Assembly: GCF_921293095.1 (NCBI RefSeq)
Contig: NC_060246.1
Span: forward strand, 10,620,001-10,684,000
Direction of reading: 5' to 3'
Origin: Ischnura elegans
Taxonomy: Eukaryota; Arthropoda; Insecta; Odonata; Coenagrionidae
Length of the DNA stretch: 64,000 nt
Shown: positions 22,901 to 62,523 of the stretch, piece by piece
How the letters are laid out: each line of letters opens with the position of its first letter
Position numbering within the stretch: the stretch's first letter is position 1
Translations under genes and position numbers: made by a program
The notes under the pieces: generated by a model
The model's database searches: none
Seen by the model: only the letters and a program-made list of their open reading frames with translations
What the model was told of the DNA's origin: nothing

Positions 22901-25900
22901 TCTACAATGATTGTAGAATTGTGCTAAGTTTACATAAAAACCAAGAAGCTCCGATAAAATCTGGACCCAAATGTGAAGAAACAAGAAGAGGAAATGGAGA
23001 TAGACAAGGGTGTCCACTGTGCTCTGCTATTTGACCTCTACTGCAAAAGTTTTCCCAATATTTTTCCCCATTAAGTCACCTGGTGCACAGGACATAAGGG
23101 TTGATAAATATTTTTGTAAATAGTAGCTCAAAGGTTAAAAAGTGAATCGAACTTCAAAAGTAAAGACTGGTAACTCCACATAATTTATTTAAATAAGCCT
23201 AGTTTCTATTTAGAGAGTCGTCATTAGTTACATTGGTTAACAATGCAGAGGTATGTATGGCTTAACGTTTGGTTTAGGACAAGAACTATAGGTCTGCAGC
23301 TATATTTTTGTCCGTGATGATTATTTGCTTCAAAACCATGGTTGTTTCAATAAATTATATAGATTCATCAAGTCTTTGCTTTTCAATCACAATGATTATC
23401 AAATTCCATGATGTCATTCCTGAGATCACAACTTTAAAAGTGTATGTTCTAACAGACGACTGATCTTAATCAAATGCTCTATACTGATGAAAATGTACTT
23501 ATAAAATTAAAATAAAATTAGTTTTCCATTGATGTAGGCATATCACCATTGAATAAAAACACTGAAATTTAAACCCTCTTCCAGAATCTGATGCCAAAAT
23601 GTAAAATGTTCCCCATCATAAGGGACACAGTTATGCCATGGCTAAGATTGCTATGCTGTCAATTGGGTACCATCAATATCACTATGAGAATAGCTACGTT
23701 TCCTTAGAGGAATAACTACATTCAGCCTTAATGAAATGATGTACTTTTCCTTCTGTGTTCCTCCTCCCATGAAGTATCTTCCTCTGTAAAAAACAGCTTA
23801 TCACACATATGGCAACTTGGAGAATTCTGAGGACATACACAATGATGTATGTAATTATCTTCTAAAAGGAAGAAAGCTGGTAAATGAGGGGTCACAAGTA
23901 TTACCCACTTTTAGCAAAAATCTAGTTATGTATTTGTGGACACATTGAACAAGAAAAAAGTAACTGGTATAAATCATAGAACACAAATATGAAGAGAGGT
24001 GGTTATAAAAAGAACATCTGATGAAGGATGGCAAATTAAGGAAATCATAATTTTGTGTGTTTTTGGAAAATTTCTTGAATTTTGCAAGCATTTACTTCCC
24101 AAACTAAAATCGTTAAAAAATACTAACAGTTCAAACATTGATTCAGCCCAATGTTACCCAGTCTAAGAAAGTCGTCATTGCTACTGCCTCTAGTCGAAAT
24201 ACAGAGATTCTTGGTGATAGAGAGCTCAATTTTTCAGAAAGCATAGTAATCAATATAAAATCAGATAACCACTACATTAAAATGAACGATCATATCTGGG
24301 AATTTAGTAAGGAAGATGACTGTTCTTGTCCTACAGCAACATAAAATATAGTTATCATGAAAAAACAGGCTCATTAAGTAAAATATTCCAAAGTACTACA
24401 AATAAAAATGTTCAACTGTGTTAATGTACCAAGAGACAAGAATTTGCATTTGATCAAAATATCAAATTTTAACAAACCTTCAAAATTGCACAAAAGTTCA
24501 TTTTGTAGTTACTACATGTCCTAGTAACACAAGCTACCATTGTGCTTGAAAATATGAACTTTCTCCTAAAGCACAAGCATAAGGTTCAAATATTGCCATT
24601 GAAAAAACATTTAGTAAATTCATTGAATGTATAACCTTTGTATTTAGAAATTCATTTAGCCATCTAGGACCAAAGGCTCAAACATGGCAGGAAACACTTT
24701 AAATGAAATAGAGCTAAATATGTTTATAGTGAATGAATGGGTCATCAGAGTGAAGGAGTATATTCTTTCATAGAAGCTTTTGTGTCAATAAGGAAAAACT
24801 ACAGCACATCACTCTGCAAATGAATTAGCTCTGATGTTGTAAAAGTTACATCAGGTGTTCCACAAGGAAGCGTAATCGGCCCCCTGTTGTTCATTATATA
24901 CATTAATGATCTATGCTCCTGCATTGGCAGTAAAATACGTTTATTTGCTGACGACGCTGTCATCTATTGCAAAATTAGTGATCACTCTGACTATGAAATT
25001 CTATCATCTGACTTAAACAACGTTGATTTGTGGAGCCAAGACTGGGGACTCAAACTTAATCTGAGCAAATGCATGGGGGTACATTTCTTGCGGAATTCGT
25101 CCAACTCTAACCATGTTTATGCAGTGGATGGTATTAACATAAAGGCAACAGACGAAGTGAAGTACCTGGGAGTTACAATAACCTCGAACCTCACGTGGGG
25201 AACACATATAAAGAATATTTGTGGCATAGCCCTGAAGAAATTAGGATTCGTCAAGCGTATTGTGGGAAGATTTTCGGATGAGAAAGTGAAAGAAAGGTGC
25301 TATTTCGCACTCGTCCGACCGCACCTTGAATATGCAGCGAGCGTACGGGATCCGGTGCAGAAAGACTTAATCCGCGAACTGAATAAAATACAAAGGAAGG
25401 CTGCGCATTTCATCAAAAATTGCTACGGGCGTACAGACAGTGTTACCCAGATGTTAAGCGAATTAGGCTGGGAGCCATTGGAGACTCGGAGGCTGCGCGC
25501 TAGGCTTAGATTGCTTGAACAATTGAGAATGGATATCTTTAAGAGCGACATAGAGAACATAATATTAGAGCCGCACTATATTTCCAGGTCCGATAGAAGT
25601 GATAAATTGAGAGACATGTTTTGCCGAACGAATAGATATGGGAATTCATTTTTCCCCGAACCATAAAGGACTTTAATAAATGCTAGTCCCAACCTCGTTA
25701 GAGCACTTCATTTTTTTTAGCCGTAAACGGCTGGTGTCCTAACACCCCCTGCCACACGCCTTTTAGGCGGCTCGCGGGGTATTATGTAGATGTAGAAGAA
25801 TGAAATAGCTACTTTCTTCTAATGAAATGAAATTTTACAGTTTTTGCCGTGGTGTGTCCATATGACAGATGGACATCAAGGAAACAATCATATGAGATTA

Positions 25901-31900: not shown

Positions 31901-34900
31901 CCTGGTCCAGAAATTACCATACTTGACTCAACTTGATACTGGCTAGATACAACTCGGCTAAATATTCAACTCAAGATCAAAAAGTACTACTCTACTCGAG
32001 ATCAAAAAGTTAACACCATTAATACCATGAATTTATATTTAAAAAAAAAATAGGATGAACATGCTGCCATAGTAGATGCTCCTAATGCAGGAAAAATATA
32101 ATGTCAGAGTAGTCTCCTGAGAAGCCATTGAAAAGATCTCAGGATTGAGATCTGCAATTTTTTTTAAACATCTCCTTGTATATCCAGGTAATACACAAAA
32201 TATTACTCATATTTTGGGTTGGTTGGTAAAAATTCTTCCTGATTATTAAAATTAAATCAAGTTTAATTTAAATAAAAATTTGCAAGTTACAAAGTTTGTA
32301 GGCAAGTTTTCTCGGTGGAAGAGGCAAGGAAAACATTGAACTGAAGTCTTCTTTTCTAGGAATATAACATTAGTAGGAGAGTAAAAATTGAACCTTGTCC
32401 ATTCTGAAAATTTTAATAGTAAACAAGCTTCCTTACATTTTGACTGTATCTTTATTCAGGATACATTCCATGTTTATTTACACAGTCTAACCATATTTCA
32501 CTAGCCCTACACCTAGCTGAGTCAGGGTACCTGATATGTTGTTTCCTTGCTGATTGTCCTACATATAGGAATGGACCCCATTGTTTCAGTTCAGTCAAAA
32601 TAATTCTGCACCTTCCCCTTATACCTCTTCCACTGCTTCTTAAAAATGCAGGGGAAAAGGTAATGACTCCCCCGACAAAACAGAGTGTGACATGTACATA
32701 ACAGGAAACATACCAAGGGACCACATGTAAAACACACCATTATTTTCAAAAAGAAAACAGCAAAAAAAATGAGAAGACTTTAGGACCCTTAGCCTAACGA
32801 CTCATGCGTCCAGTATAACATATTAACAAGAATCATCTACAGGAGAATAGAACAGAAAGCAGAGAAGTTCCTGGATGAAGACCAAATTGGATTTAGGAAA
32901 AACAAGGCCACAAGGGAAGCCACGTTCGCTCCTCAAAGAGAAGAGAATGGAGAAGAACAAGCCTACATTCATCACGTTCGTGGACTTAGGAAAGCCTTTT
33001 AATAGTAAAAATAAGTCATGCCTGAGAATAGGGGAAACAAATTTTTTACTGGGGGAATGTACGTATCTCATAAACACTATGAGAAAGGTCAACAAAAAGG
33101 GATTTACTTTCATGTTTTTCATGGGAACAATGCTCAAGCCAAAGAAATTACTCAATTTTCGGCCTCATGGTGGTGAAGTTACCATGCGTCAGAATTAGGA
33201 CATTAACCTCTACCCATTGGATTTTTTATCCGCAAGACGGCGGCTAGGCAAGCCAGGCGTGCATGTCTGCCCACAGTATTATTTTATTTCTGTGGTTCAA
33301 AAGTGTTCATTTATGTTTTGTGTGTGTTTTCCAATGCAGATAGTGCTTTACTTTGTTGGCACGAGTTATAGAAATGCTGCTCGTGCAACTTTTGGATTAT
33401 TGTGCTATTGTGCCTATGACTCTCGGTCAACGTGACTTGTCGCTCCCAGGATTTGGCCTGCCTCCACCATGGCAACCGTTTTTCCTCCCTTCCTGTGTTT
33501 TCCTATTGTCCCTTCAAGTCCCTCCAAATAATTTAGGTTCTAATTGTGTGCTATATAATTATTGGTGTGTTTGTTTCTTAGCATCCTTTTTCGACTTACA
33601 ATGTGCACAATGAAATTGAGTGTTGGTAAATATCAAAATGTTCATAGTTTGAAAAACAAGCTTGGGGCAATGGACTCGTTTCTTCATGAACTACGAAATC
33701 ACCAAGTGATATCCATCACAGAGACGTGGCTTTGCGACAATGTTTCTGATGGCGAATTATCTATATCCACTTCTCATCAAATTTTCAGATATGATCGAGT
33801 CGGTAAGCGTGGCGGTGGTGTCCTTCTTGGTGTTGACAATCGTTTCTTGGTGCTACGTCGCCCTGATTTGGAGTTAGGCCCCGGGATAATATGGGTCAAA
33901 GTAACTCTTCCCTTTAATACAATGTCTTCTGTAGGGAGAAGGCTATTAATTGGTACATTTTATCCACCACCTTCTGGTGACATGACAACTTTGGAAAAGT
34001 GTTTCAACTCTGTGTCACTAGCCCATAGTGTGGGTGAAGTTATGCTCTTAGGTGACTTTAATTTAGGCATTGACTGGTCCTACCCTGTGAATGTTAAGTG
34101 TTTATCTGGCCTTGAGGAGTTTTTTGTTGATCATTTCATTAATGGCCTGGGCCTCAAGCGGTGCAATATGTTTCCCACGAGGGGGTTGGCAGTCCTGGAT
34201 CTTGTCTCATCCTCGCTCGAGTTGAAAGTTTGCCCTGCTGGCGACTATTTCTGCTCCGACCACGGGTCCCTAGAAATTTCGCTTGAATCCAGCGGGTGGC
34301 CACCCTTTAGACCAAGATCTACTCCGCCCCCTTCTCTACGTCCTCCCACCCCCATCTGGAAAAGAATGGATTGGGCTCATGTTAATGACTCCCTCAACTG
34401 CCTCCCATGATGCCTCTGGGAAGAAGGCTCTGTGGACGAAGCCCTTGATATGTTTTATGACTGGTTGGTAGGTGTCCTGAAGGATTGCATTCCGCATCGG
34501 AAACACCGTTCTGGAAAGTTCCCACTTTGGATGACCAGTGAGACAGTTTTTGTTTTAAAAAATAAGCTAAGTGCTTGGTGCCTATATAAACATTTTCCGA
34601 ACCCCTACACATTAAAAACTTTCAAGAATCTTCGGTGTCATGCCAATTATCTGACTAAGATAGACTTTAAAAACTATACAGCCTCAATTTCGTTTGACTG
34701 TGTTTCCAACCCAAAACGGTTCTGGTCTATGATCAACTCCAGGCATAATTCTGCTTCCACGCCTAAGGAAATGTCTTTTGGTGATGAAACTGCTGTTGGT
34801 CCTGGGTGTGCTGACCATTTTTTCCAAGTTTTTTTCATCCACCTACACCTCTAACCAACTTTTGGATATCTCTGTTCTTGATATTAAATGTGTTAGTTCC

Positions 34901-37900
34901 CACTCTCTCTCCTTATTTTCCACTTCTCCCGATGAATGTCTTAATTTGTTGACATCCCTTAAAACTAACCGTGCAACTGGTTCAGATCAGCCAGCCGCGA
35001 TGTTCCTAAAAAATGCAGCCCCTTCCTTGGCTGTACCCCTATCCATCATTTTCAACAGATGTTTTTCAACAGCATACTTTCCATCAGTGTGGAAAATTGG
35101 CAGCATTTTCCTCCGGAAAGAAATCTTCTGTAGAATCATACCGTCCTACTTCAATTTTGCCAATTCTATCGAATATTTGTGAGCGCATCATTCATCAACG
35201 TCTGTTGTCTTTCTCTCTTCCCTTAATATCTGACAAACAGCATGGTTTCCCTCCCGGATCATCGACATTTACAAATCTGTCCATTTTGGACAAACATTGC
35301 ATTGACGCTTTCGAGACTTCATCACAGCTGGATGTATGCTATATTGATTTTGCCAAAGCTTTTGACAAAATTAACCATCAATTACTGCTCTTCAAATTAG
35401 AGAATCGGTATAATGTCCATGGTAATGTTCTTTCTATCTTATCATCTTTCCTTCAAAACTGGCAACAACACACTATAGTAAATGGGTCGGGTTCTTTGAT
35501 GGCACCGGTTACATCTGGAGTTCCACAAGGGAGTGTCCTAGGGCCTTTTACTGTTTGCTTTATACATAGATGATCTGGTTAACATTATCTCCTCCACCAA
35601 TTGTAAAATATTACTATACGCAGATGACAGCAAAATTTTTAAACAGATGGATTCCCCGAGAGACTGCCTTGCTCTGCAGAAGGCTCTTCATGCCATAGAC
35701 CAATGGTCTGAGATTTGGAGTCTGAAAATTAATCCAGCCAAGTCAACCATCCTCCCATTCACCCTACGCATGTCTATCCTGAGTAAAAATTACCGATTAT
35801 CTGGACATGATATTCCTTCAGTCACCTCTCAGAAGGATTTAGCGGTTATTTTTTACTCTAAGCTGCTCTTCCGTGAGCACATTAAATCTTTTTCCACCTG
35901 TGCTATGTCTTTGGTGGGTATGAGTATCGCCATAGTGAGGTGTTGGATTTAATTGCTCTACGCACCTTCATCCTTTCCTGTGTCTCTCTGGTCCTAGAAT
36001 ACTGCAGCCAAATCTGGTCTACAGCCCCACCTTCTTCATTAAAGCTCCTAGAACACCCGTTGAATATTTTCCTTTCTATTGTCCGCTACCGCCACTTGCC
36101 TTTTCGTAACTTCTCCCTCAATAAGATTAGATCCTCTCTTGGCATTGCTACTTTATCTGATCGCCGTATCCTCAATGACCGGAGACTCTTCTTAAATATC
36201 ATTAATGACAAATACAGATCATCTGACCTTTTTTTTCCGCTTTGTGTTCCTTCGCGCACGACGAGGTCGAGTGACCTACCTATTTCATTGTTTCACCCCC
36301 CGCCTTTCTGTCTCTAAACACTCTTTTCTATTCAGACTTCCTTCTTCCATTAACTCCTATGCCAAATGTGTTCCAAATTTTGATCCTTTATTTCATCCCT
36401 CATCCATCTTCCACCATCACTATCGTAATTTTCCCACTATCCCTTGCACCACCTGATGAAATTTACTATTCTTTGTAAATATGTACCTACTTTTGAATAT
36501 TTTTTGTTCATTATTGGTTACATTGCTTAATATTATTAAATTGTTTCTCCTGTTATTGTGAGTCCTCTGTAATTGGCCTTGTGCTGTTTCTGAACTGGAT
36601 TAAATAAATAAATTCACAGATATTGGCCTTCATTGCTGGTTTTAATTCTAATTAGCCATTTACATGATGCCCTTTAAATTAAAGTGCCCGTACTGGTATG
36701 CTAGGCATCCAGCAGAGCTTTTCGCCAGACCTGTATGAGCACCCTACATGTTTAAAGCTCAATGTCAATCATCCATAACCTGATTCTTTTCTTTGATTGT
36801 AGGCATAAAAGAAAATTGAATTTGCTGACATGATTTTGTGTATTACTTTACAGATACAGAGGGGAGAAAAGAGATAATTACAAATATACTAACAGATTCT
36901 TTGAAACCATTGAATGAAATCATACTTAAAGGAGGTTTCTCAGCTGATGGCACAGGAAAAGTGGATTTTGCTCTTGAATCAACAGGTAAGCATTATTATG
37001 ACCTGTGGGAGGCTGCAGAATGGTGAGGTTGGCATATTACTTTACTTTTATGGAAATTCCTTCGCTTCATAAAGGAGAGAAACACAAGTAAACTATCTGT
37101 TAGGCAAGATAAGGGTAGTCTGAAGTCCTTGAAAAGATGTGGGTAAGTGAGTCCGGGGAAAATACATTAATTGCAATAACTGTTTGGTATCAGTGACAGC
37201 AGGACAGACTTTAGTGCCGTCTCTTTTCTTCCCACCATGAGGGCCACTCCTTCACTATATCACTAAAGTAAATAAATGTCAGTGGTGGGTGTTCTGATGA
37301 GAGTCCCAAACTCATTAGCGGGGATGATGATCCATTCTTTCTCAGTGAGATACATATAGCAGAAGAGAAACGGAAGGAGAATATTGCTGAGTGAGATGTA
37401 TTTACCATTATCAATCATAAAAATAGTAAATAAAGGCTAACTTTGAAAGATAATTATAAAAAATGACGCAGCACTGCTGCGGCGCCGTAAATCCAACGAC
37501 GTAACTAAATTTGAAAATCCATATGAGGGTTAAAATAGTATTTTAAAAAGAATTTCCATCTTGATAAAATAAAATAAAATCACTTTGTACTTTCCACACA
37601 ATTTTTAATGCTTTGCAACTGGTTTCCACGCGTTCTCTCTCATTTTCAAGCTAGACTGCTATCGCAAAACATTTAAAATTGAGTGGAAAGTACGAAGTGA
37701 TTTTATTTTATTTTATCATGTACAATTCCCACAAAGTTAATTCACCAACCATCAACTTCAATTTCCATCTTTTTGAATAGGAGGAAAAGTCGTGAATACT
37801 CCAAACACAGAGCCATACGCATTAAGTAGAGCTCATTCATTGTTTGGTTTACATCAATGCCAAAAAGGAAATCTCCAGGCTATTATTCAGGTAAGGTAAT

Positions 37901-40900
37901 AGATAAAAAAAACATGATATGGCTACATACTATACATATTGGGTAAGATCACAGTACTCACAGGAAAAAAAAGGTCCTTCAAAGCTGCCGCCCTATTTTT
38001 TTGCGCACCAGCCAATGCATCAGCCTCAAACTGAGCTGCATAACTTCTGTTATTTTATCACCTCCTTGCTTCTGCAAAACAGGACAAGAGAAATAAAAAC
38101 AAAGAAAAATACATAAATGAATATTCAATTATCCTCAAAATGACTCCTCTGTCTAATTTCGTCAGCAGTTATTAGAAAAAGAATGTTTGACAAAACAGTC
38201 TTTCCATTCATCACTTTTGCCCCAAACGACATTTTTTTAAAAGTGCTGTAAAACAACCCTATGAAAACAATTAAAAATATTTATTTTTAATATAAATCAT
38301 ATACATACACAATCCAGTCTGAGTAAATACATACTTGCTTGATTTTCAAAGTCTGTCTCTCACTGTTTTTTCTGGACTAAAAGCAAACTTTCAATGGCAA
38401 TTCTCATGCTAAATTAAATTTTATCTACCAAATTTCAATACAGTTCCCATGAAGTTCAAAATACCATCAAATGATGTACGTTTAGCGGCCATGTGAGGTA
38501 TAAAGGAATACAAAATTATTCATATTTACAATGATTACTGACAAAGTTACAGGTTACCCATACAAACAAGCCACATTGAATCACAGTTTTAGCTACATAC
38601 ATTTATCCTCTTCAAAAAAATTCATGATTAAATGCTGTAATAATAATAATTTTATATATTTATTTCATGGACTCAAGCCCTTTTACCAAATTACAAGAAT
38701 ACGTACTAACAAAATACATTTAGTCCAGGAAATGAAGCTCATAAAAGTGAAAAACCTTGCAATTTTTTCAAACTGAATCGATTTGCACCAAAATTTGGGA
38801 ATAGACTAATTATACCCCCTACTTCAAAATCTATATCATGCCGAAGGGCGCTTTTTATTTTTTAGGGGTGAAAACTACCCCTAAAAGCTGGAACTTAAAA
38901 AAATATTTTTTAAAGCTAAATACGAGTAAAATTTAGTTTAAATTATTTGTATAATTATTTTTTTTGTTTGGAAAATAATTTTAAGGCGTTTCAACCCATA
39001 ATAATCAATCCTTATAGGGGGTTAATGTAAAAAAGAATTTTCAAACTGAATCGATTTGCATAAAAATTTGTGATTATACTAATCATACCTCCTTTAAAAA
39101 TTTTTTTCAAACCGAATCGTTTTGCATAAATATTTGGGATTAGACTAATCATACCCCCTACTTCAAAGTCTATATCATGCCGAAGGGCGCTTTTTATTTT
39201 TTAGGGGTGAAAACTACCCCTAAAAGCTGGAACTTAAAAAAAATATTTTTTAAAGCTAAATACGAGTAAAATTTAGTTTAAATTATTTGTATAATTATTT
39301 TTTTTGTTTGGAAAATAATTTTAAGGCGTTTCAACCCATAATAATCAATCCTTATTGGGGGTTAATGTAAAAAAGAATTTTCAAACTGAATCGATTTGCA
39401 TAAAAATTTGTGATTATACTAATCATACCTCCTTTAAAAATTTTTTTCAAACCGAATCGTTTTGCATAAATATTTGGGATTAGACTAATCATACCCCCTA
39501 CTTCAAAGTCTATATCATGCCGAAGGGCGCTTTTTATTTTTTAGGGGTGAAAACTACCCCTAAAAGCTGGAACTTAAAAAAAATATTTTTTAAAGCTAAA
39601 TACGAGTAAAATTTAGTTTAAATTATTTGTATAATTATTTTTTTTGTTTGGAAAATAATTTTAAGGCGTTTCAACCCATAATAATCAATCCTTATTGGGG
39701 GTTAATGTAAAAAAGAATTTTCAAACTGAATCGATTTGCATAAAAATTTGTGATTATACTAATCATACCTCCTTTAAAAATTTTTTTCAAACCGAATCGT
39801 TTTGCATAAATATTTGGGATTAGACTAATCATACCCCCTACTTCAAAGTCTATATCATGCCGAAGGGCGCTTTTTATTTTTTAGGGGTGAAAACTACCCC
39901 TAAAAGCTGGAACTTAAAAAAAATATTTTTTAAAGCTAAATACGAGTAAAATTTAGTTTAAATTATTTGTATAATTATTTTTTTTGTTTGGAAAATAATT
40001 TTAAGGCGTTTCAACCCATAATAATCAATCCTTATTGGGGGTTAATGTAAAAAAGAATTTTCAAACTGAATCGATTTGCATAAAAATTTGTGATTATACT
40101 AATCATACCTCCTTTAAAAATTTTTTTCAAACCGAATCGTTTTGCATAAATATTTGGGATTAGACTAATCATACCCCTTTCTTCAAAGTCTATATTATGC
40201 CGAAGGGCGCCTTTTATTTTTTAGGGGTGAAAACTACCCCTAAAAGCTAAAACTTAAAAAATTATATTTTAAAGCTAAATACGGGTAAAATTTTGTTTAA
40301 ATTATTTGTATAATAATTTTTTTTGTTTGGAAAATAATTTTAAGGCGATTCAACCCATAATAATCAACCCTTATTGGGGGTTAATGTAAAAAAAAATATT
40401 TATCACATTGTATCTTCTTATTCACTTTCTTATACTCCTTTTATTATGTATTCACTTTTTTCTCTCATGATTTTAATCACTGCACAGAAAAGATATAACA
40501 ATAGGATAAACAGAACAAACTTCGTCATGGTAACATAAACAAATAAATGTACATTTATGTAGACATTACATGAAACACAATCAAACGGAGACTGTATGGC
40601 TTCCAGTCTTCCCACCACATGCATGCTCACAGGTAAGCGAGAGCTCACATACTCACACATGTGTATGTATATATACATCTTATGGGTATGTGTGTTTATT
40701 TTGTAGCAAATTTGAGTGTGTCGTTAGCTTCTAACGTAAAGTACAAAAAGTATATGCTGATTATGAGGAATATTATGCTCTGAATTGTGGATTTCGAATT
40801 TTTCGAAAATAAATTTGATTGGTATTTCAAGCATAGCTCCTTTATTTTTTATTATAGAAAGTTAATTTAAATTGTATTTTGTAGGGATTTTATTGACTAG

Positions 40901-43900
40901 AAGGTCATATGAATTAAATTTTTTTCGAGTCATTAATTTTGAAAGGGGAGGGATTTAAGGGTTTAAATAAGGTGGAGCTGGAGGTGGAAATAGAGGTTTT
41001 AATTATCAATATCTCACCAAATATTTATTGTATAGAAAATTAAAACACACTAAAATATTTGAAAATAAAGAAGCTACAATTTATTACTCTCGCATTTTTT
41101 TCATATCTCCAGTTTTTTTGGAGTTATTTTGAAAAAAAGAGCATTTTTAACAAAATTGTAGAAAATGACTTTTCACTTTTTCCTCCAATTTTTTCAAAAT
41201 TTAGAGTTGTAAATTAAGAAAACTTCTAGGATCAATTAACAATACTTAAATAAAGAGAAATACTGAAGGGCATTGATCAATTTTGTCTAGTGTGGTAATA
41301 AGGAGTTGTTTTCACTGATTTTTTCGTACAAAAAAGTAGGGACTGATCTTATTTTTAATCATAACTCGCTCAAATTTCATGATAAAAAATATTTGTTCTC
41401 ATTATAAGAAAGTTTTTTAAAAACACTTTTAAACAGATCATATAATTTTTCCTCGAAAATTATATTTTTCCCGCTATTTGGTATTGAATCTTTCAAATTT
41501 AGCGTATGACAAACAATAGATAACCATCAACAAGTTGTAGCTCGGTCCGAATTGGTCATAAAGGTAATATAAAATAAGATTTTTATTTAATTTTTTACAA
41601 GCTACAGTTTTGTAATTCACAATTTTCTAATAAAATTAATACTTTTCAAGTTATTTGCCTATAATCGATTAAAATCGTTGATTTTTTCGTCAAAAAACTG
41701 TTACTTTCAATCGCTAATAACTCGAAAAATATTAATTTTACGCAAAAAATGGAAAGAACATTTTATTCTTACAATTCAATTTTCTATCGATTTCTGTGGT
41801 CAAAATATAATTAAATATTTCCACCCCCGAGTTGGGGTGGAAACCACCCCCAGGGTAAAAGCGCCCGTCGGCATGATATAGATTTTGATTCTTGGTATAT
41901 TCCCTACTTATTGTGAAAATTTCAAGAAAATCGATTCAGTTTGAAAAAATTGCAAGCCAAAATGCTTCATTTCCTGGACTAATTCAAATTAAGAACAAAA
42001 ATACAAACACATATAAATATTTGAAACATAGATAGACAAATGCATGGAAGGAACATTAAATAAAATTTATTATTAAAATACAGCAGACTCCCGATTACCC
42101 GGCTGTGGTATATCTGTGCATGATTTCACTCTAGCTCAATATTGTCCGCGATCTTTATAAAAAAAAAAAAAAAATCGGACGCAAAATCATCGGAATTACT
42201 GCATTAATGCTAGGATATACATACCGGGATTTTTATTTCCGTTAGATACCCCTTCGTAAAATAGAAGCAATAGCACGCTAGCTGCATTCATGGGAGCATT
42301 GTGTTCCCGTTTTCCAAGCCTGGTAGTGCGCGACCGTGCTCCATGATCACAGATACACGTCCCGCAGCAGTTGCAACCCGGGCAACTTGTGCGAGATGCA
42401 ACTACGTGGCGTCGTGCCTGACAGTTTAGTTCCGACAATGAGCAGAGGTTTTGAGGCTTTCGTGCAAACCACTTCTCTTTATCCGTGATCACACAGCCAC
42501 GGATGTGTGGTTTTCAAAACCAGGCCTTATATTGAGCATTATTCATGCAAGTACCACAATGTTATTGCCGCGAAAAAGATCGCAAATTGGCAAAGAAAGC
42601 TCTCAATGAGTCCAGGAAGCACTCTAATGTAAAAGAATAACTGCATAAATACTAACATATAGTTTGTTTTACGTAAATTATGAACATTACTAGACATCAA
42701 AGTTTGGGTTATCCGTGTTTTCCGATTATTCGTGCCGTCTCTCCCCATCATTAGCCATTAGGATAATCGTGAGCGTGCTGCAGTTAAAAGTGTAATATAA
42801 ATAATAATAATGGTATCAGGTTATAGGTATTCTTCTAAAGGTCTAATTTCACCAAGTTTCCCTACTGCATATATGGTGTGGTGCCCCTTAAATTTGTTTT
42901 TACTTGTTGTAAAACTAATATACATGTATTCACTCATAACTTGCAAGAGTAAAAAAAAAAATATTCTAACCTTAAAAAGAATCAGAGTGGGTAGGGTTGA
43001 ATATGTTACTTCTGTTGTTGAAATTATATGGAGTGACCTAAAATTTTAGACTCATCTAATGTTCTTTCCTTAGTTATTTATTGTCAAATATGACCAAATA
43101 TAGAGCAAATGAAGACGGATGCGAAAGAGAAGAGACATAAATATGAGAAGCTGATAAGATAACTTACATCAGAGTAATTAACAGTGGCGTACCTCTGGGA
43201 GGGGATGAGGGGACAGATCCCCCCCCAAAGCCTCAGAGAAATAAAAATGTTTAAAACTCTTGTTTGGTTTTGACATGTAATAACTGCAACTGCTTTGAGT
43301 TAAATCTTTCATGCCAATATGATGTTGAAATCAGGCCTGTGCTGGACCCCTTCTTAGTGTGGTGGACAACCATGGCCAGATGGCGCCAGCATGAGGAGAA
43401 TTACCGGGGGGCACCAAAGATCTCCAGGCTGGAGGGCGCACCAGGATACTGCCAGCGGCCCTGCACAGGCCTGGTTAAAATGCATTTAATTTTTCAAAAA
43501 TTTTCCTGGACTGGGTTGCCACCCCCCAAAGCGTATTCCTAGCTACGCCACTGGGAATTACTATATCAATTCTAACTGATGGTGGCATGTAAATAAGTGC
43601 ATTGGTTCACAAATGGTGTGAATGAGCTACAACAAGAATAATTAGGCACAGAAATACATTGTGAAAATAATGGCTGACATAATACCAAGGTGTAGACTGC
43701 ACTTCCAACGAAAAGCATGTAAACCTATTAAAATGTAAAATTTACCATTCTCTGCTGAAAATCAGGGATTTTGAGAAGTCAAATGATGTCATAAAATCAA
43801 GTATGTATTGATCAAATAATATCTCATACTGGTTTCATGATGCTGAAACTCAGAAAAAAAGGTCGTAATGTCATGAGTAATCTCCATATTAGAATGTAAG

Positions 43901-46900
43901 GCTTAGAGTGTACAGCTAAAATAACTAATTTTATATTGCTTTAAAGCCAGGAGTACTTCCAGGACAATGTTGGGCATTCAAAGGATCAAATGGAAGAGCA
44001 GTGATTCAGCTCATAGGATACATTTATGTGACATCTGTGACAATGGAGCATATACCAGTTGCACTCTCTCCAAGTGGAAACATTGAATCAGCTCCAAGAG
44101 AGTTCTCAATATGGGTAAATAGTAAAACAGGGGATTATTTAAACACAACAAATAAGTAGGAATTAAGTTCCATAAGTAATGTGACCAAATTCATAAAAAG
44201 TTACTCATCGAATCATCATCATCATTAGTCAACAATCCTGGGATTGGTTTGACGCAGCTCTCCATTTCTCTCTTCCATCCGCTAACCTTTTCATAGCTAC
44301 ACATTTCTTCTCATATTCGTACAAACGATCAAAAATCTTCAAAATTGCACCCTCTTGCATTGATACACTTCTGGAGGCATTGTTTCCATGTCTGGAAGGC
44401 CTTTACTGGTATGTCCTTTACAGGGGCGCCGACTTATAAAAAATATTGGGGGGGCCCATATCGGAGGTCTTGCTCCGGGAAGAGGTTTAATTCAAAGTGT
44501 GTAACAGCATATCATGATTCATACCACTTGCTTTCAGTTAACCTGCATACTACATTATGTATTTGTTTTTACGCATTGTTGAATTTATTTTAAAAGGTAA
44601 CTAGCGTCAAGCATGGGAAATAAAAAATAGGTACCAATATATTTTTGTGATTTCACAAAGCATAATATAACTAAATTAAATGCAATGGTGGTTGGCGTAA
44701 CATGGTGGAACTCCTTCATGATGCACAAAGGTTAAGAAAAAGACTTCGCTGTTCGCTACAGCGTATCATCATCTGGCCAGATGATGATACGCTGTATCGA
44801 AACCGGTCGCAAATATATTTTATTTTGTGGAACAGCGAAGTCTTTTTCTTAACCTTTGTGCATAAGTAAATTACTTTATTGAAATAGTGAGGGGGCTCCG
44901 CCCCCTCAATAATTCAAGGGGGCTTGGGCCCCCTCAGGCCCCATGGAGTCGGCACCACTGGTCCTTTAGAGCCAAGGTGACATGCGCCTGGATGCTTTCA
45001 ATTGTGTCCCTCAACGTTTTCCTCTAATGACTCCTTTTAATTGAGGAAACTAAAAACAGTCAGTGGGAGCCAGGTCGGGGCTGTAGGGGAACCAATTGGC
45101 AGTGGATCCTGGACAGGAAGTCACTGACAACCAAGGCACTGTGACTCGGCACGTTGTCATGATGAACTTTCCACGCAACCTTGATGTCGCTTCGGAAGCG
45201 AGTGACCCTTCTTCTCAGTCTTTTGAGGACTTCCAATTAAAAAGATGAGTTCAGTGTGACCATGGCAGGTACCAATTCAGAGTGGACAATGCCTCCCACG
45301 TCAAAGAAGACAATGAGCATGGATGCTGGTTGGATCCATGGATTTGAGGTTGATGGCGGTCTACTGCAAGGTTCGTAGGTGATCTTCTCTTGGCCCTCCA
45401 TGAATGACTTGCGCCATTGAAAAACTTGTGATTGGGACAAGTAATCACCCCCAAAGGCCTGCTTAATTAATGGAAGCGTTTTGGTGGTGTACTTCCTAAA
45501 TTTGACGCAAAATTTGATAGCGTACCATTGCTCCACAGAACGATTCATTGAGCCGCGTTACATAAACTCAAATCAGGGTTCATGTAAATGCAAGTCCTGA
45601 CTCTCCAGCAGCTCATAGCCAAATGGGACCGAGTGTGTTTTGAATGTAACACCCCCTCAACCTATCCCAAAACACACTGTGGCATAACCATGCGTCAGGA
45701 AAAATTTGGTGGCATTACTTATGGAACGCAGAAAGGAACAGCAAAAATAAGTTTTGAAAATTTATTAAACATTTAATCTCAAAATAAATATTGTCTCATC
45801 TTAACAAAGTAATAAAATTTTTCTAGGAAATGGAAAATGTACGAAGATACATGATGAGACACTACTCTGCTGGATTAAAACTCTTGAACTTTTTATTTTT
45901 TCAACTAGGGTCTCATGAGCCAAGATGATGAGATGAATGCATTCTATTTTGGAAATTTCTCTTATGATAAAAATGGACCCCCAGCACAGACATTCAATGT
46001 TCAGGTATGTGGTTAAAGAAATGATTACTATCTAAAATGATGCATAATTTGTACTCAATAGCAAGAAACTGGGTATCTCAATGAAAACTCTGCAATGTAG
46101 ATGACCGTAATCTTATACATTTTAGATATAAGACAAACTCACGGACATAAGCTATGAAATCACAAATTTTGGACATGCTGGGGGTTACTCATACGCATGG
46201 GATAATATGCTCCAAACTTACTAAATTCCTGAACTAAAGTCAGAATCACAACTACAGAGTTGACCCCTGAACGGCTAGCGTGCCCATATGGGCACAGCTG
46301 CAGTGGTCTAAAGAATTTCGTATAAATTCCGACCCAAGCATTATATAGCATGTTGTTTTCGCCAAAAATGATTACAAAGTATCACTTTATTCGGTTCGTG
46401 TGCTTATACAGCCAGCATTTGTACCAGCAGTTGACTGTGGCAGGATAGGTATTCTTACTCACTCTGTTTGAGGAGGCAAAAGAGAAACAATGGTGAAGTG
46501 TCTTCAGCAAACACGATTTTTTTTCCTTTTATTTTTTATACTCGGCTAAGTATTTAATCTTATCCTCATAATGAATGTTGTCAACTTCAGTTTCTTTTGC
46601 CAGAATTGTGATATCTTTCGTATGAGACGAGGAATTTGAATTTATTTTTGAGTTATCCCATATGGGCACGCTAGCCAGTAGCCGGGGGTGTTTTTTTTTG
46701 GCGTGTGTCCTTCCCTACAAATGTCGTTATTGGGTACGTTATCAAATAATTTCAATGTAAAACGCTAAGTTTTTGTCAATCTTTCACTTTTTTCTTATGT
46801 CACTCGGTTTTAACGACTTCAATATTTTTTGCTGTATTTTTTTGTAATATTTCCATTAATATTTAGTACAAAAAATCTATTTTATACAATTCAACACTTT

Positions 46901-49900
46901 TATTCATGGTGCTTGCGTTATACTTTGCTCAACTATCTAAGTATGAAGAATGATAGGGCTACCTATTTTCTACCACTGGTATTCATACCCAACAATCTAG
47001 GGCATGGTGGAAAGGGGAAAGGATGTTTGATAAATACAATGATGAAGCTCATGGTGAAGCGCTTTGTATCGCGTATAAAACTTTGAAACAATAAAAAGTA
47101 GATAGAACCTTGATCACGTCGACCACATTGAACTCGTGTTCAACTTTCCCAACTAAGTCCAATCCCTAGTTGTAAGTCCCAAGGAGACAATCAAGGCGAA
47201 AGTTAATAAGCAATCATTACAAGCTCCGTCAGTTTTAGTCCTGAAAAGGATGGAGGAGACAGCAAAATGACCGATAAGTATGCATAGGCACGAGATGACG
47301 TGTCACCCGCTGAGAATATATTTCTCATAATGAATTTTGCTGCATTTCCAGTAAATTCCTAGTTGAGGTTTCCGAATTGTTCGTGACGGAAGAAATTTAT
47401 TTTTCTCTGTTCTAGTCAATTCTATTCTGAGTGGTTATTGCTGTCTGCAGGAAGAGAATTTTTGGGAGAGTGGCGATGATGTCTGAAACACCCTGGTGTA
47501 TAATGCCATTCACAAGGTTGCAAAATATAATGAGGGTTTTTCACTGTGCAGATAATAATCACTACGATAACAGCGGCAAAATGTGCACACTTAGGCCATT
47601 CATAAATATGATAAAGTACGTTTGTTCAGAAAACTATGAGCCAACCCCCGAGCTAAATTACAATGAATCCATGATAAAATATTTTGGCAATCATGGTTGC
47701 AAACAGTTCATATGGGGTGAACCTATAAGTTTTGGCTTTGAAATATAGTGCTTGAATACTCCTCAAGATTACTTGGTGGACTTCAGCATACAGCAGGGAC
47801 TGAGTGTTGAAGAAAAAAATAACTACCATAAATTCGTAGGTAAATGCTCTTCGTATTTGCTTATCATGTTGGACAATTTACTAGAGTAAGCGATAAATCT
47901 TACCTTTTTCATTTATTTTGACAATTGGTTTCCTAGCTTCCCTCTAATAAGTCAGTTAAAATCTCAATGATATGAGGGTACTGGAACATTTCTGAGAAAA
48001 AGGATACCCAAAGGTATCTCATTGATCAAAAAAACAGCCAGCTTAGCAGCCCCGCTGCTCCCATGCTTTCGCACGGGAGAAAAAAGGGAATATTTTTGTC
48101 ATTAAATAGAATGACTATTCGGTAGTGACTGTCAAGTCACCTTGCCAATGTGTACACCCACTCAAAAAGGTCACGAGATTCCAACGTGTTACCTCAAAAA
48201 TGGTACAAGTTAGGCAGCCAGCAGTGGTCTATAGCTACAATATCTAGATGGGCGGAACTGATCTCACGGATCAAAATATCAACAGGTACAGGAATGTTAT
48301 CAGAGGAAAAAATGGTGATGGTCCACATGAAGCTATCTCGTTGATGCTGCCATTCTAAATGCCTGGATCTGTATGGAATTGTGGTTCAAATATACCGCAG
48401 TAAGCCTTTAGGCGAGATTTTGCAAAAGTGTTTTTGTAACGAAGATGTACCTTTCCCAGACCTGGTGGTCGTATTTAACATTCCCTATCAAGTGCAACCA
48501 ATCATAGAAAGTCTGATGACATAAGGTATGATGGTAGTGATAACCAATTTGTCCCGTTTCGTAAACGCCGATGTTCTTATGAAGAATATTCTTCCTGCGC
48601 GCGCTGAGAATTTGCTAAATGCACAGGTCTTTGCCTTCAATGAAATTCTATCATACTCGGCAATTGAAAATCCAATTTATAGCATTCAAAAACTCTACCA
48701 GCAATATAGGACTAATTTTGTTAATAAACTCATTGATAACGTGTTTTTTTTTTCATTCAATAACTGTTTTCAAACCTGAGTTTTATACTGTTAAGTTCTT
48801 TGGACAGCCAAAAAAAATGTTTAAACTGAAAAATTATAGTATAATGATTTGAAATTACTTCAAATTGCCAAATAAAAGAAATATTATAGGTAAATGCAAC
48901 AATATATGGCGTATGATGCAATAAAAATGAGAATTATGATGGTTCGAGTGATTCTTCTGCAGAATGCAGACCGCTGGCCAGAACGGCTAGTGTGCCCATA
49001 TGGGCACACCCCCTCTCGCAAGAACGACTCAACAGAATTTTAAAACTAAGTGTTTATCTGAATGATTGGGCAGTAATTAAGCAGTTTTTAATGGAAAAAC
49101 AAAATAAAACTCTGATAAAAAACTTCGCTATTAAAGGGTTAAAAGTTACTAATGAAACTAAATTTCAGCATTCTTCAAAACAACATCCATTAACACTACG
49201 TGCACAATGCTGGAAAGGTACTTGGGCTGGCCAATTATCCCCAGTACTCGAAGTACCACCTGTTGGGATACTGATCATGACTGAATCAGTTTTTTACATT
49301 ATAGTTTTTCCTCAATTTAATTGCTGTCTGGATAGATTTTAGTGCTATGTACAGTGCAACCTCGATATAACGACACCCCACGGTGCACTAATAAACACTC
49401 GCTATAGCGAATTGTCGCTTTACCGGAGGTGGAGCAAATAATAGCCAATATACCTGTTGCGGACAGATATACAGAAACAGGAGTGGTGCGGCGACAGATA
49501 AACATCTATCCGATAAACGTAAGCATAAATCCAGACGAAAGGCGATGTTTTTTTGCATCACTAAATTTCCTTACTCGAACAACGACTAACTATTCAAACC
49601 ATTTATAAGCGCCGCACTGAATAAAAATCATGGAAAGCATTGTTTCGTCAATCATTATGCTAATGCACAACCGACGAAGTCATTTTTCTATGCACTTAAT
49701 TAGTTCATTTACGTGATCATTCTATTATTTTGGTATTTTCCACTGAAAATTCAAAAATTAACTGACAAAACAGTATCGCGGTTATTTAATGCCTCAAAGG
49801 TTTCCATTGGTGTATGTTTATTGTTTCTGTACGTTAACCGGCAGTGAAGTGAAATAACGCATTACATTTGTTTCTACCGGTGGAAGGTTGTATAACGTTC

Positions 49901-55670: not shown

Positions 55671-55800
55671 AGAACGGTGGCGTAACAAGGAATATGCTTA
55701 GGGGGGATGATGGGGTGGCGACTCCCCCTCCCCCTTTGGGGGGTAAATCAGTCCATATTGGTGTTGCTTGTAAGTTAAGCAACACCAATCTGGACTAGCT
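55671..55800. mobile_element. MITE end with 20-bp hairpin
   Basis: AACGGTGGCGTAACAAGG resembles the CAGTGGCGTA ends of hAT MITEs in the window and is followed by the G- and C-rich runs those elements carry. A hairpin with arms 55750-55769 and 55777-55796 (AGTCCATATTGGTGTTGCTT and its complement with one mismatch) follows. No opposite end was identified. Confidence 0.35.
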
Positions 55801-56324
55801 ATAGTTATTACCGCTTTTATTTAAATTAAATTATTAAAGTAATTGGCGGATGGAAGAAATCGGAAATCCCAGTGAGTGAAGAGCGTTGAAGGAGCGCACT
55901 CCGTCCGTCTTTCAAGCATCGAGGCTGAGAGAGGGAACAAGGGACGAAGGGACTTCTTAAGCTTACAAAGGCATACGTTAGCTTAAGAAGGCATTGGACG
56001 AACACGTCCGATCTTGCATGTGACGTCGCACAGTGGTCCCAAATCGAAAAAAGCTGGCCAAAATTAATAAAGTCGTAATTTTACCTAAATTAAAAACAAA
56101 AATTGAAGTTCATTACTGATTTTGATCGCCTGAATCTGATTTTGGCATTATTTTTACGCTATCTATTCATTTTAGCATTTTTTGAGCTGTTATTACTTTA
56201 CAATTTTTAGGAAATCTCGATATAGATGTCATTGCGATTGGCGATAACGTGCTGTTATTGGAGATTTTAAAACAGTATAATTTTAAAGTAAAAGATTTAT
56301 AAATTGTAGTTAAAAGCCATGATA

Positions 56325-56400
56325 GAACTTACGACATAAAATTGTCGAGATTCGAACCCGCGACCATCAGCGTAGTCGGCGAGATACCGAAATCGGACAA
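56325..56400 (-). repeat. tRNA-like B-box segment, possible SINE scrap
   Basis: On the minus strand TCGCGGGTTCGAATCTCGAC contains a perfect Pol III B-box core (GGTTCGAATC), preceded by a tRNA-like GCCGACTACGCTGATGG. No convincing A box or acceptor stem was found. It lies in the 3' part of the Transib element, so it may be a nested SINE or a tRNA fragment. Confidence 0.35.
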
Positions 56401-56644
56401 ACTATTCAGACTCATACATTTTTGGCTTCCATGTATTTAAAAGTCACATTAGATTAAATAAATTGACTGATATTAAGCAAATTGAGGATAATAATGTTTC
56501 AATTTCAATAAAATCACTTTCACGTATCCCAAAAAGTCGAATTTCAAAAGAATCGTCGTCCGATGTCACCCCACCCGACTCTTTGTCGCTCTGCGAATCA
56601 CTTAAAATTAGCAGATTTTCACCTCACCTGATAGACTGACCTCG

Positions 56645-56975
56645 TTTTTTAGGAACTTCTGGTGTAATTAAAATGTACAGTTCATATATTAAAAGAAGTC
56701 TTCGAAAGATATCTTTATTATTTATCGCTCTTGAGGATTTTATTGCACGGTGCTCTGGGAATGTCCTCATGCCTATGTTCCTTGCCTCCAAAGCTTCCTC
56801 CGTTAAAAATTCCTTTGTAAGAAAGTATTATTTGGCAATTGCTGTTCCACGTATCAGCACTTTATGTACCATGGGCAGCATATAATACAACCATGAAGCT
56901 CGATGTACAGCTCAGCTATTTCCATGCTATATTGGCTGAAGACTTCATTATTCATCTCGTAGCCGCGGGAAAGGG
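56645..56975 (-). pseudogene. Transib transposase C-terminal remnant (RAG1-core related)
   Basis: Minus-strand frames, in order, give NNEVFSQYSMEIAELYIELH (about 56955-56896), then after a frameshift PMVHKVLIRGTAIAK, then LTEEALEARNIGMRTF, PEHRAIKSSRAINNKDIF and RRLLLIYELYI. The VHKVLIHG, (L)SEEA-EARNK and N-D-F-RLL blocks are those around the last catalytic Glu in Transib and RAG1 core proteins. The EE of LTEEA is kept. A stop after IAK and frame changes show it is dead. Upstream parts (57.0-59.0 kb) are too decayed to read confidently. Confidence 0.82.
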
Positions 56976-59245
56976 ATTTAAATATCACTGAAAGTCGAAG
57001 GATAAGTATTTCATCGATACCTACCTGAAATGAAAATTGAAAATCACATTAATAATTGCATTTCATGCATCTAAAGCATCTGTTCGTAGATTTTTGAAAA
57101 TTATGGAAACAGGTCCGATATTTCTTTCTAATTTATTATATTTTTAAACTTATACGTAAGTTCATCAATTCATTTATTGTCTGGAATGAAATCCTGAATT
57201 AAAACTCCACCGTTAAATGTATGATGATTGAGATAAATGCATGATCATTTTTACATACTGCATATATTCGCCGACTGTGCATGCATGCACGGTAATCATT
57301 TGCACTCAGTAGATGTGAGAGGGAGATTGAAATACTTCTGGAGGGAATTTAAATTCCTTCGGCAACCAGCTTTTGAACGTCACTTCGAAATGATCATCTA
57401 TCCTCGAGCTTTGATTCCACTTTATCAGGTATTTCGGGAAAAAATTCTTCGTATAAAGCGCGTCAGAATATTTTTGGCATGCTTGATTTCATTCAGTTGA
57501 AATCTTGTTTCCAAATATTCCACGACATATTCCTTCTTCTTCTATTCATTGCTTATGAATACTCTTTTCTCTCTTTATTATTATTGTACACCGCAAGGTA
57601 CGAAAAATTTGCGGCATCCATAATTCAAATTTAACAGGTGTATTTACGGCTGAAACGATGAATGTGATTTCAGAAAGTTGTCTATTTTTAACCGATCAAA
57701 AACCGGAAATTATGAGTTGACATTCAATAAAAGATATAAAAGCTTATATAGACTTGCCTCTGAGTTTATGGCGTATCCTGAAATTTGAATGCCAAACATG
57801 GGCAAACCAAGAGCTTTCATTACCTGGACGGGAGAAGTTTCTCGAGTTGGCATAGTGTTAACACAGTTCGGAGCACAGCACTTGTTCACTAAGAAAATCA
57901 TTAAATAAAACTGAGTGGGAAATATTCATCACATCCATGCAATGGTCACAGTGAGGGAGGCCGTCATCCTCACTCCGTTATTATTAAAAAATGCACATGC
58001 AAGATGTACGCACCCTTAAAAGGGTTTAGAAGAATATTTCCCTCCGCACTGCATCCTACCTACGTCTACAGGCTGTTGAAATGATCCTGCGAACAATTCT
58101 TGGCGGAAATGGCGGCAAGGGGATTAGGGAGCATTTATTTCTCTTAGCGCTAAGACCTTATTACGGAATAACGTGCTGACAACGCTGTACAGCATGTAAG
58201 GGATCTTTTCTCTACAAAAATATGAGGAAATTTTTGCAGAGAAAAGCATCTAGTAGTTACTGTAAGTTTCTCGCATAGTGACTTTGATTGTAGTTGATTT
58301 TTCTCATTAAGAGCATGACAACCGGCCTTCATTGGTTCCATGAATATCTGAAGGTGAGTGCACAAACGAGAAGTGTGCATACGATAGGCGTGAAAAACTT
58401 GATGTATGTAATCTCATAGGTTGTAGAATAATGCTAAGTACACACCATGCAAGTTCGACCACCGATACAGAAATGTTTAAGCGATAATGCCATTCGGTCT
58501 TCCGCCGGCCCCCGGCCAGCCGCCCTCAGCGGAGCGGTGCACCGCTCAACTTAAAACCCTCTAGATGTCGGATAGGCAAGTATAGGCAAGATTTTTTTTC
58601 TCCATATTGTTGTATATATTCTTCCCAAGGATTCTGCATAGGAATATTCGAGGAGCACGGAGGAGCAAAAAACTATATCGACACATTTTAATAAAAATAG
58701 GCCCAAAAATAGCTAACATTATAAATATTTGAATATTGTTATAAGAAATTCTGAAACGAAGAAAGATTACCATAATATTGTGCAAAAATGTGTAAAGTTA
58801 CCGTATTAAAATTTACAGATGAATCCCATGAAATTAAAATGGTCATTTTTTAAGTAGAATTTCCCTAAAATCGACTATTTCTACGCATCGGGCGTTTTAG
58901 GCTGACAAGCCCATGTTTGACGGCTTCTACAGGTCAACATAATAATCACACAGACCTATCAGGTACGAATTATTGTAGGCAATATCCTGAAGAATCCGAA
59001 TATATAATTCAAAACTTCTTCGTAAAAAGTCGAAAAAATGACTTTTGGCCAGCTTTTTTCGATTTGGGACCACTGTGCGTCGTTGCCTTCAAAGCGACGC
59101 GACGGGGCGAAGAAGCAACAATGTGATCTATGCAGTATATGGAGTTTCCAGTCTATGTTGTCTTGCTTGAATGCGCTAGTGATACGCTTGTTTCTTCCGA
59201 AATTGTGCTGTTTGGAATATGTTGAATATTAGTGGCCATGTTCAT

Positions 59246-59543
59246 GGGCGTACCTAGCGAGGGGCATGAGGGGGCAGCTGCCCCGCCCCGCTAAAAGCAA
59301 AAATTACTAAAGTCTTTAAGGAAAATCAGAAAGTTTTCAACAATTTTTCTTTAATATAGTAGTTAAAGACATATAACGAAACTGAATTTTTAAGCAAATA
59401 ATTATAAAAACAAATATGGCGCTGTTATAATTGTCTTAAAATGTTGGTTTCAGTCACCTTTTCCATGCTTAAAATGTAAAATGTTACAGCTTGAATGACT
59501 ATGGCTGCCCCCCCCCCCAGTTTTGATCCTGGGTACGCTCTTG
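59246..59543. mobile_element. hAT-like MITE, decayed ends
   Basis: The left end GGGCGTACCTAGCGAGGGG, a long G run, and the right end with a C run then GGGTACGCTC resemble the CAGTGGCGTACC elements at 43182, with the first bases changed. No coding frame. Confidence 0.45.
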
Positions 59544-60544: not shown

Positions 60545-62523
60545 GGCCCCTTTCAGACGTGACGGCTTTTCGCCGGCCGCCGTCCACGGCACGGCACAAT
60601 GCCTTTAAATAACCATAGTTAGCAATGGGTGTCTTCAGACGAGTCGAATCACGCCGTGGACGACACGACGCCAGTCGAATCCAGTAGAATTCAGAGTAGC
60701 GTGATCAGCGAAGAAATGCGGACATGAATAATATTTCACAGTTCCCATATTTTAAATTGTGTTTTTGAACGAGATGGGAGATTTTATAGTGGACGTTGAC
60801 GCTTTTCAACCAAATCCAAGTCATGCAATTGCGTGTGCGATATGTCCAGCAGCTATCAACCTATCTAGAGCCAATCATTTATTTAAATGGAGAAATAGAG
60901 AAAAAAGGCTAAAATATGTGTATTCTATTAGGTAAATAATAAGACTTATGATGTACGCAAAAATAGTCTATATGACTTTATGTACATATCAATTGTAAAT
61001 TACACCGAGTCAAGACATTCCATACGATTGGGGAGCTGCCGCGGACTGCGCGCGCGGCAAAAACATCGATTTTTATTTTTAGTTGATTCTAATGGTCATA
61101 TTTGATTTCTTTTGATGGGCACTCTAAAACGTTTGATGTAATTTAATGTAAATATCTTGAGATAGCACGGTGATCCTTTTCTTATAATCCCAAATAAACA
61201 CAAAATTTCGACGAAAAATAGTCCTACAATTTGTATCGTATCGACGATAAATATCGATAAATATAACGAAGAAATTAGGTTATATGAAATGTAAATTGGA
61301 TGTGGCACTAAATAAATTATATCTTATACGTAATTAACTTGTTAAAAAATTCACTTTCCAACGTCCGTCGAGCACGGCATTCCCCGCGGACAGCTGAAAG
61401 CTCCAAACTGCGCCGCACGTTCGAAAAATCGATCTTAATTTCGGCGTCGCGGGTGGTCGCTTTCTCCTTTTGGTATCACTCTCTATAGGTTTTGTTGCAT
61501 ACGTGGTGTAAATATCTCGAGGTAACTCGGTGATCCTTTTTTTATAATCCTACATGGACATAAAAGTGGAGCCTGAGGAAAAGAGGAGCCTAGTAATTTA
61601 AACTTTTTTAAAGGAACTCTACCAAGAATGCATAACCTCAAGGATGCGGAAACAGTTAACTACCAAATCGAGGTATTGAACATTCTGGAGAGGATACAGC
61701 AGTTGCGAGCAGTTTCTTCTCCTCTAGCAGGATCAATTCATTCTCCGACATCACTTCATTCTACGCCGTCAAACTAGTCAACTTATTCTGTGAGGGAAGT
61801 GGTATAGTGTTTTGGGATTTGGGATGAAGCGAAAGGTTTCAACTTTATCAATATTTGATGTATTTTGTAAAAATTCTTTGTATTTTTTTCTTCCTGTTTG
61901 ATTTTTTAAAATTATTTGAAAGTACTGGAAAGAATTTCTGATAGATAATGTTTTGAGAAGTAAACAATAAAAAATTCTAAAATCGGACTGAATGAAAAAA
62001 TCACTATGATGCATTCCCCAGCTCACATGAAAGTGTTAAGATCTATTACATTATCTTTCTTTAGTAATGAAATTTTATGTTTCCTTTGTCTAAAAACAAT
62101 TTTATGAAAAATAATGCTTAAATAAATAATTTTAAAAAGAAATTAAATAATAATAACCTATCAAATGAGTTACTCATTGGCTAGTTACAGATTTCATATT
62201 TGTATCGAGGTTCCCTAAACTAAATTTTATATATAAGCAGTATAGATAAAATTTATATCAGCAGTATAGATAAACAATTAAAATAATAATTTAAATTATT
62301 ATTTTATAATTCGCTCCTATTCATGATAACGACTCAAGAACTATTGAATAAATGTCGCTGATGGCCGTGCCGATTGCTTGCCGTACTGTTCTCCGTATTT
62401 AACGGCGCGCCGCGCCGTGAACGGTGACCGGCGGAAAGTCGTCTCGTCTGAAAGCTTCCTGAATTTCACGGCGCGGTGCCGTGGACGGCGGCCGGCGAAA
62501 AGCCGTTGCGTCTGAAAGGGGCC
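60545..62523. mobile_element. PIF/Harbinger-like element with about 50-bp TIRs
   Basis: The left end GGCCCCTTTCAGACGTGACG and the right end read inward GGCCCCTTTCAGACGCAACG continue matching through GGCTTTTCGCCGGCCGCCGT and CCACGGCAC. Flanking TTA (60542-60544) and TAA (62524-62526) fit, imperfectly, a 3-bp TWA Harbinger target. An internal second GC-rich inverted block occurs at about 62400-62450. Most of the interior is AT-rich. A short frame at 61610-61770 may be the tail of a MADF-type accessory protein. Confidence 0.7.
61610..61777 (+). pseudogene. possible MADF-type protein tail in Harbinger-like element
   Basis: A plus-strand frame reads MHNLKDAETVNYQIEVLNIL then ERIQQLRAVSSPLAG, a helix-rich segment like the C-terminal part of MADF/BESS proteins carried by PIF/Harbinger transposons. 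No upstream start or MADF domain is readable. This is a weak call. Confidence 0.35.

Follow-up and report, generated by a model that had tools for sequence, protein, structure and literature searches.

Structure of the element

The window analysed here, a 64-kb stretch of DNA from Ischnura elegans, contains a 3,049-bp element at 56029-59077 that is delimited by its ends and by a target-site duplication and is placed on the minus strand from the orientation of a transposase remnant inside it. Its terminal inverted repeats are perfect (35 of 35 positions identical): the left arm, CACAGTGGTCCCAAATCGAAAAAAGCTGGCCAAAA, occupies 56029-56063 on the plus strand, and the right arm, its exact reverse complement, occupies 59043-59077 on the minus strand, each starting with CACAGTG. 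Direct reading of the flanks gives CGTCG on the left (56024-56028) and again on the right (59078-59082), and the chance of a 5-mer match between two random places is 0.0016. An A-tract, AAAAAA, begins 11 bp past the heptamer at both ends. A preliminary description of this DNA had reported an inverted repeat of at least 35 bp at both tips, CGTCG flanks, a first heptamer equal to the consensus recombination signal and an A-tract starting 11 bp after it, and each of these observations was confirmed.

Formally, the perfect inverted repeat measures 37 bp (56027-59079), reaching 2 bp into the duplication because CGTCG both begins and ends with CG, and in this form it is the longest of the 15 listed maximal perfect inverted repeats of at least 20 bp in the 64-kb window. 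An alternative parse, in which the ends read GCAC... and the duplication is the 3-bp GTC, is equally compatible with the letters, and CAC ends with a 5-bp duplication are preferred because of the transposase remnant. Two attributes by which Transib elements are recognized are present, namely ends that begin with CAC (CACAGTG twice) and a GC-rich 5-bp duplication (CGTCG), the borders and the duplication being read from one insertion. A blastn search for a second copy within the window found none, its matches being the element itself, its two arms and one short internal palindrome. Counted over both strands, the window contains 11 copies of CACAGTG, where a crude estimate predicts 15; as a bare motif the heptamer is common, and its location at both tips is what matters. 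The CpG observed/expected ratio of the element (1.08) is not distinctive among 3,049-bp windows (mean 0.67, SD 0.24, maximum 1.35).

Transposase remnant

Approximately 145 codons on the minus strand, from 57021 to 56588, correspond to the C-terminal 30 percent of the Transib transposase from Helicoverpa zea (PDB 6pqn). The main, C-terminal piece at 56588-56896 lies in a minus-strand frame of 56030-59077 (residues 728-830, window 56896 to 56588) and matches 6pqn_A residues 383-487 in phmmer with an E-value of 2.4e-8, the sole significant match to PDB sequences over six frames; the only other PDB row for this frame up to E 10 is a kinesin-binding protein at E 1.2. The upstream piece at 56890-57024, in another minus-strand frame, corresponds to 6pqn_A residues 339-383. 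When the full frame is searched, HzTransib is at the top with E 0.46, followed by seven proteasome rows of similar E that are taken as noise, and the 64-aa ORF at 56854-57048 searched alone returns HzTransib residues 339-383 at E 0.0079 as its sole PDB match up to E 10. The two pieces adjoin in both the transposase and the DNA, with a frameshift between them. A frameshift-tolerant alignment across both pieces reaches a score of 204, with 56 of 144 aligned positions identical and two of the 144 being stops, compared with a mean of 44.6 (SD 5.1, maximum 57) for 40 shuffled queries. Protein homology, through both E-values and a joint score above every shuffle, thus bears out the assignment to Transib made in the preliminary description.

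The damage to the remnant comprises one frameshift and two in-frame stops (56828-56830 and 56624-56626), the second of which may be close to where the intact protein would end. Within 55800-59300, the longest listed stretch free of stops spans 89 codons, and the intact transposase gene that characterizes an autonomous Transib was not found there. The N-terminal two thirds of the transposase, where both catalytic aspartates lie, were not detected in PDB sequence searches of six frames: the other four frames returned no rows (one searched up to E 1, three up to E 10), and the first frame of the upstream part, 57025-59076, gave eight rows up to E 10, comprising seven proteasome proteins and one takeout-like protein and no Transib. 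An HzTransib fragment spanning the first aspartate (residues 97-122) gave scores of 28 and 32, one for each strand of the element, no better than its 40 shuffles (mean 30.5, SD 3.5, maximum 39), and for a longer HzTransib fragment the plus-strand score of 47 also fell within its shuffles. In a tblastn search of both HzTransib fragments against the window, the best 25 matches listed all belonged to the short fragment and were at chance level (best E 0.69). A 100-residue slice from 56800-57100, covering about one third of the matched stretch, gave 0 matches, and no Pfam family reached the cut-off in six frames, with only a ribbon-helix-helix family appearing below it (E 0.2). Since the searches upstream of the remnant gave no Transib match, this N-terminal portion is either lost, replaced or diverged beyond recognition, and as far as we could find the element would represent a copy without a usable transposase. 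The ends, the duplication and the remnant, all observed directly, argue strongly that this is a Transib DNA transposon copy whose ends are intact and whose enzyme is dead, an assignment in which we have high confidence, and the element is an ordinary member of the known Transib group.

Among characterized transposons, Hztransib provides the closest protein comparison considered here, with the C-terminal 30 percent of its transposase alignable to the remnant (56/144 identical), and it also shares similar length, inverted ends and a GC-rich 5-bp duplication with the element. Excerpts of its original report describe a 3,518-bp transposon with a deduced 489-aa protein and the duplication GCTCG (PMC1852546), whereas the element studied here has 3,049 bp and a broken, partial gene.

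Catalytic glutamate and relationship to RAG1

The catalytic triads of Hztransib and RAG1 have been given as D126, D225 and E436, and as D600, D708 and E962, respectively (PMC6941560, in part). Counting along the printed 6pqn_A sequence places the GFDGASNQ aspartate at residue 109 and the third glutamate in EEASEARN at residue 419; because both numbers are 17 below D126 and E436, this third glutamate is E436. The window reads EEALEARN at the corresponding position, and the GAG codon at 56786-56788 (minus strand) encodes the glutamate that aligns with HzTransib E436 and RAG1 E962. The glutamate of the DDE triad is present in the remnant, and the aspartate-bearing part was not detected. A profile built from an HzTransib fragment and the window ORF 56624-56827 (A1) returned 33 PDB rows, including HzTransib itself by construction, 15 RAG1 chains, one RAG1L and 16 unrelated proteins. 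In the printed RAG1 alignments, the remnant glutamate meets the glutamate counted as E962 from the range of the full-length chain 9jpu_A. The RAG1 link of this profile is weak by itself, as RAG1 begins only at E 0.012, and unrelated rows start at E 0.065.

These matches bear on whether the element might belong to the RAG-like (RAG1L-RAG2L) transposons or be a close ancestor of RAG rather than a plain Transib, which would accord with the consensus heptamer, the GC-rich 5-bp duplication and the 15 RAG1 rows and single RAG1L row of the profile (best RAG1 E 0.012). Such an identity is nevertheless very unlikely. Searched up to E 10, the main remnant frame hits HzTransib (E 2.4e-8) and none of the RAG1 chains. 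The RAG1 matches of the profile are near noise, because HzTransib is itself part of the profile and muscarinic receptor rows, from E 0.065, interleave with the weaker RAG1 rows. RAGL transposons are recognized by a RAG2-like gene beside a RAG1-like gene, and no RAG2-like match appeared in six frames (searched in Pfam to E 1, and in the PDB to E 1 for two frames and E 10 for four). ProtoRAG and protostome RAGL transposons share with the element a CAC start and 5-bp duplications, but they carry RAG1L and RAG2L, the latter without a match here, and ProtoRAG ends have CACTATG with 27- and 31-bp spacers in place of CACAGTG (PMC8289069, PMC7204232, both in part). The protostome RAGL end consensus, CACTWMCAAACKTYKBB, is likewise unlike the ends of the element (PMC7204232, in part).

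Comparison of the ends with V(D)J recombination signals

The consensus heptamer of recombination signals is CACAGTG (PMC8289069, in part), and both ends of the element agree with it at 7 of 7 positions. Agreement with the nonamer, ACAAAAACC, is lower: at a 12-bp spacer it reaches 4/9 at both ends, and at a 23-bp spacer 3/9 on the left and 4/9 on the right, so that no 12/23 signal was found. A match of 6/9 is obtained at spacers of 10 and 11 bp. The best of spacers 11-13 gives 6/9 at both ends, a value that 14 percent of 20,000 shuffles attain for the left end and 6 percent for the right, and the best of spacers 22-24 gives 5/9 on the left (40 percent of shuffles) and 6/9 on the right (6 percent). 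The two ends are identical over 35 bp and show no 12/23 asymmetry.

It is therefore highly improbable that the ends act as a pair of 12-spacer recombination signals with the A-tract as nonamer. The AAAAAA tract 11 bp past the heptamer at both ends and the 6/9 matches at spacers 10 and 11 are what suggest such a function, but a spacer of exactly 12 bp gives 4/9 at both ends, the best value over spacers 11-13 is within reach of shuffled sequence, and the two ends are alike, which leaves no 12/23 pair. Transib ends whose nonamer-like stretches sit at symmetric spacers of 20-22 bp are described in a figure legend of PMC8355894, and the ends of the element, with raw counts of 3, 5 and 5 of 9 on the left and 3, 5 and 6 of 9 on the right at spacers 20, 21 and 22, appear to match this layout loosely; the symmetric ends shared with that group are likened by description (PMC8355894, in part).

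A CAC-first heptamer at both tips is also shared with the Transib families bearing consensus-like heptamers (Kapitonov and Jurka 2005, as cited in excerpts of PMC8355894 and PMC6941560). Since heptamers and nonamers that equal the consensus signal have already been reported for some Transib ends (PMC6941560, PMC8355894, both in part), an exact heptamer in Transib ends is not new. The seven-base identity reflects the CAC-first cleavage site that these enzymes have in common and not a special closeness to the RAG ancestor. The preliminary description had placed the insertion close to that ancestor in cleavage signal, a claim that is not supported, given that only the heptamer agrees, that the nonamer reaches 4/9 at 12 bp with symmetric ends, and that consensus-identical heptamers and nonamers are on record for some Transibs (PMC6941560 and PMC8355894, in part). 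In the literature searched, no co-mention of Transib and CACAATG was found, and a text search for CACAGTGGTCC within any word returned matches of which those listed point, by title, to unrelated work.

The parse permitted by the 37-bp perfect repeat, 2 bp inside the CGTCG copies, would make this a non-Transib element, with GCACAGTG... at its ends and GTC as a 3-bp duplication, into which a Transib piece was later inserted, but this is exceedingly unlikely, as it requires a second, independent Transib event inside the element, whereas the CAC ends, the GC-rich 5-bp duplication and the transposase are concordant without any extra event. The sequence CAGTGGTCCC resembles hAT ends, and a hAT element was considered and rejected because the 8-bp flanks differ under a hAT parse.

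Insertion mechanism, age and mobility

For the Transib copy favoured here, a transposase, supplied by another copy or by the same copy before its gene died, would have bound the 35-bp inverted ends and nicked at CAC, leaving hairpins on the flanking DNA, and the blunt transposon ends would then have been joined to a GC-rich target with a 5-bp stagger to give CGTCG on both sides. This chemistry is carried over from work on HzTransib and RAG: Hztransib is reported to follow the RAG mode of cleavage, in which the flank is left as a hairpin and the transposon end is blunt (PMC6941560, in part), CAC is critical for RAG cleavage, and 5-bp, GC-biased duplications are common to Transib and RAG (PMC8289069, in part). 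The insertion at CGTCG would fit this pattern of cleavage and duplication.

The absence of differences between the arms (0/35) limits their divergence to at most 8.2 percent (95 percent bound, assuming independent mutation of the arms). By rough estimate, one frameshift and two stops in approximately 145 codons need no more decay than this, and because gene decay need not exceed the arm-divergence bound, movement after gene death is possible. The term fossil, applied to the insertion in the preliminary description, suits the transposase gene with its frameshift and stops and is less apt for the insertion itself, whose arms are identical and whose duplication is intact. Later movement would need another copy, since no usable enzyme was found in the element, which would now be mobile only if that copy supplies transposase. 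A broader scenario, in which this is a Transib lineage whose two tips match the V(D)J heptamer exactly and could be cut by vertebrate RAG1/2, and whose defective copies still moved in trans after gene death, is conceivable but improbable.

Transib is the accepted source of RAG1 and recombination signals. An additional family bearing the exact heptamer is one more data point on the freedom of heptamer positions 4 to 7, and the element by itself raises no new question. Autonomous Transib copies number one or a few per genome in the genomes having them (PMC4411706, in part). In contig collections comprising viruses and prokaryotes, where blanks say little about animals, the exact 18-base end was found in 0 viral contigs and a 23-base end in 0 GTDB genome contigs; the HzTransib fragment gave 8 pattern stretches in viral contigs, and the A1 profile gave 67 in viral and 286 in genome contigs, with 0 confirmed in each case.

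Other repetitive features of the window

Within the element, a minus-strand stretch at 56346-56385 (GGTCGCGGGTTCGAATCTCG) resembles the 3' half of a tRNA-derived SINE; Rfam gave no match up to E 1 in 56200-56500, and ARAGORN no tRNA match in the window. Outside it, piggyBac-like transposase remnants (Pfam family DDE_Tnp_1_7) lie at 18316-18909 (E 2.9e-25) and 47431-47745 (E 1.3e-9). Reverse transcriptase pieces (RVT_1) occur at 24824-25663 (E 2e-16) and 35010-35570 (E 9.8e-18), the latter with an endonuclease-like ORF at 33559-34407 (E 1.2e-4, below cut-off) about 600 bp upstream. Together with the low GC of the window, the piggyBac-like and reverse transcriptase pieces would fit an animal host, perhaps an insect. 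A 3.2-kb stretch at 38756-41956 has 29-bp perfect inverted ends (CTTGCAATTTTTTCAAACTGAATCGATTT) and has inside it a 340-bp tandem array (4.8 copies, 38763-40397) with a unit that holds sequence much like the ends; the stretch may be a transposon carrying or seeding a satellite. Two further inverted repeats were observed, namely a compact palindromic stretch of 143 bp at 44721-44863 with 34-bp perfect arms, and a GC-rich 31-bp perfect repeat at 60562-62506, whose arms are about 1.9 kb apart from outer to outer edge and which resumes outward past a short mismatch (TTAGGCCCCTTTCAGACG on either side).
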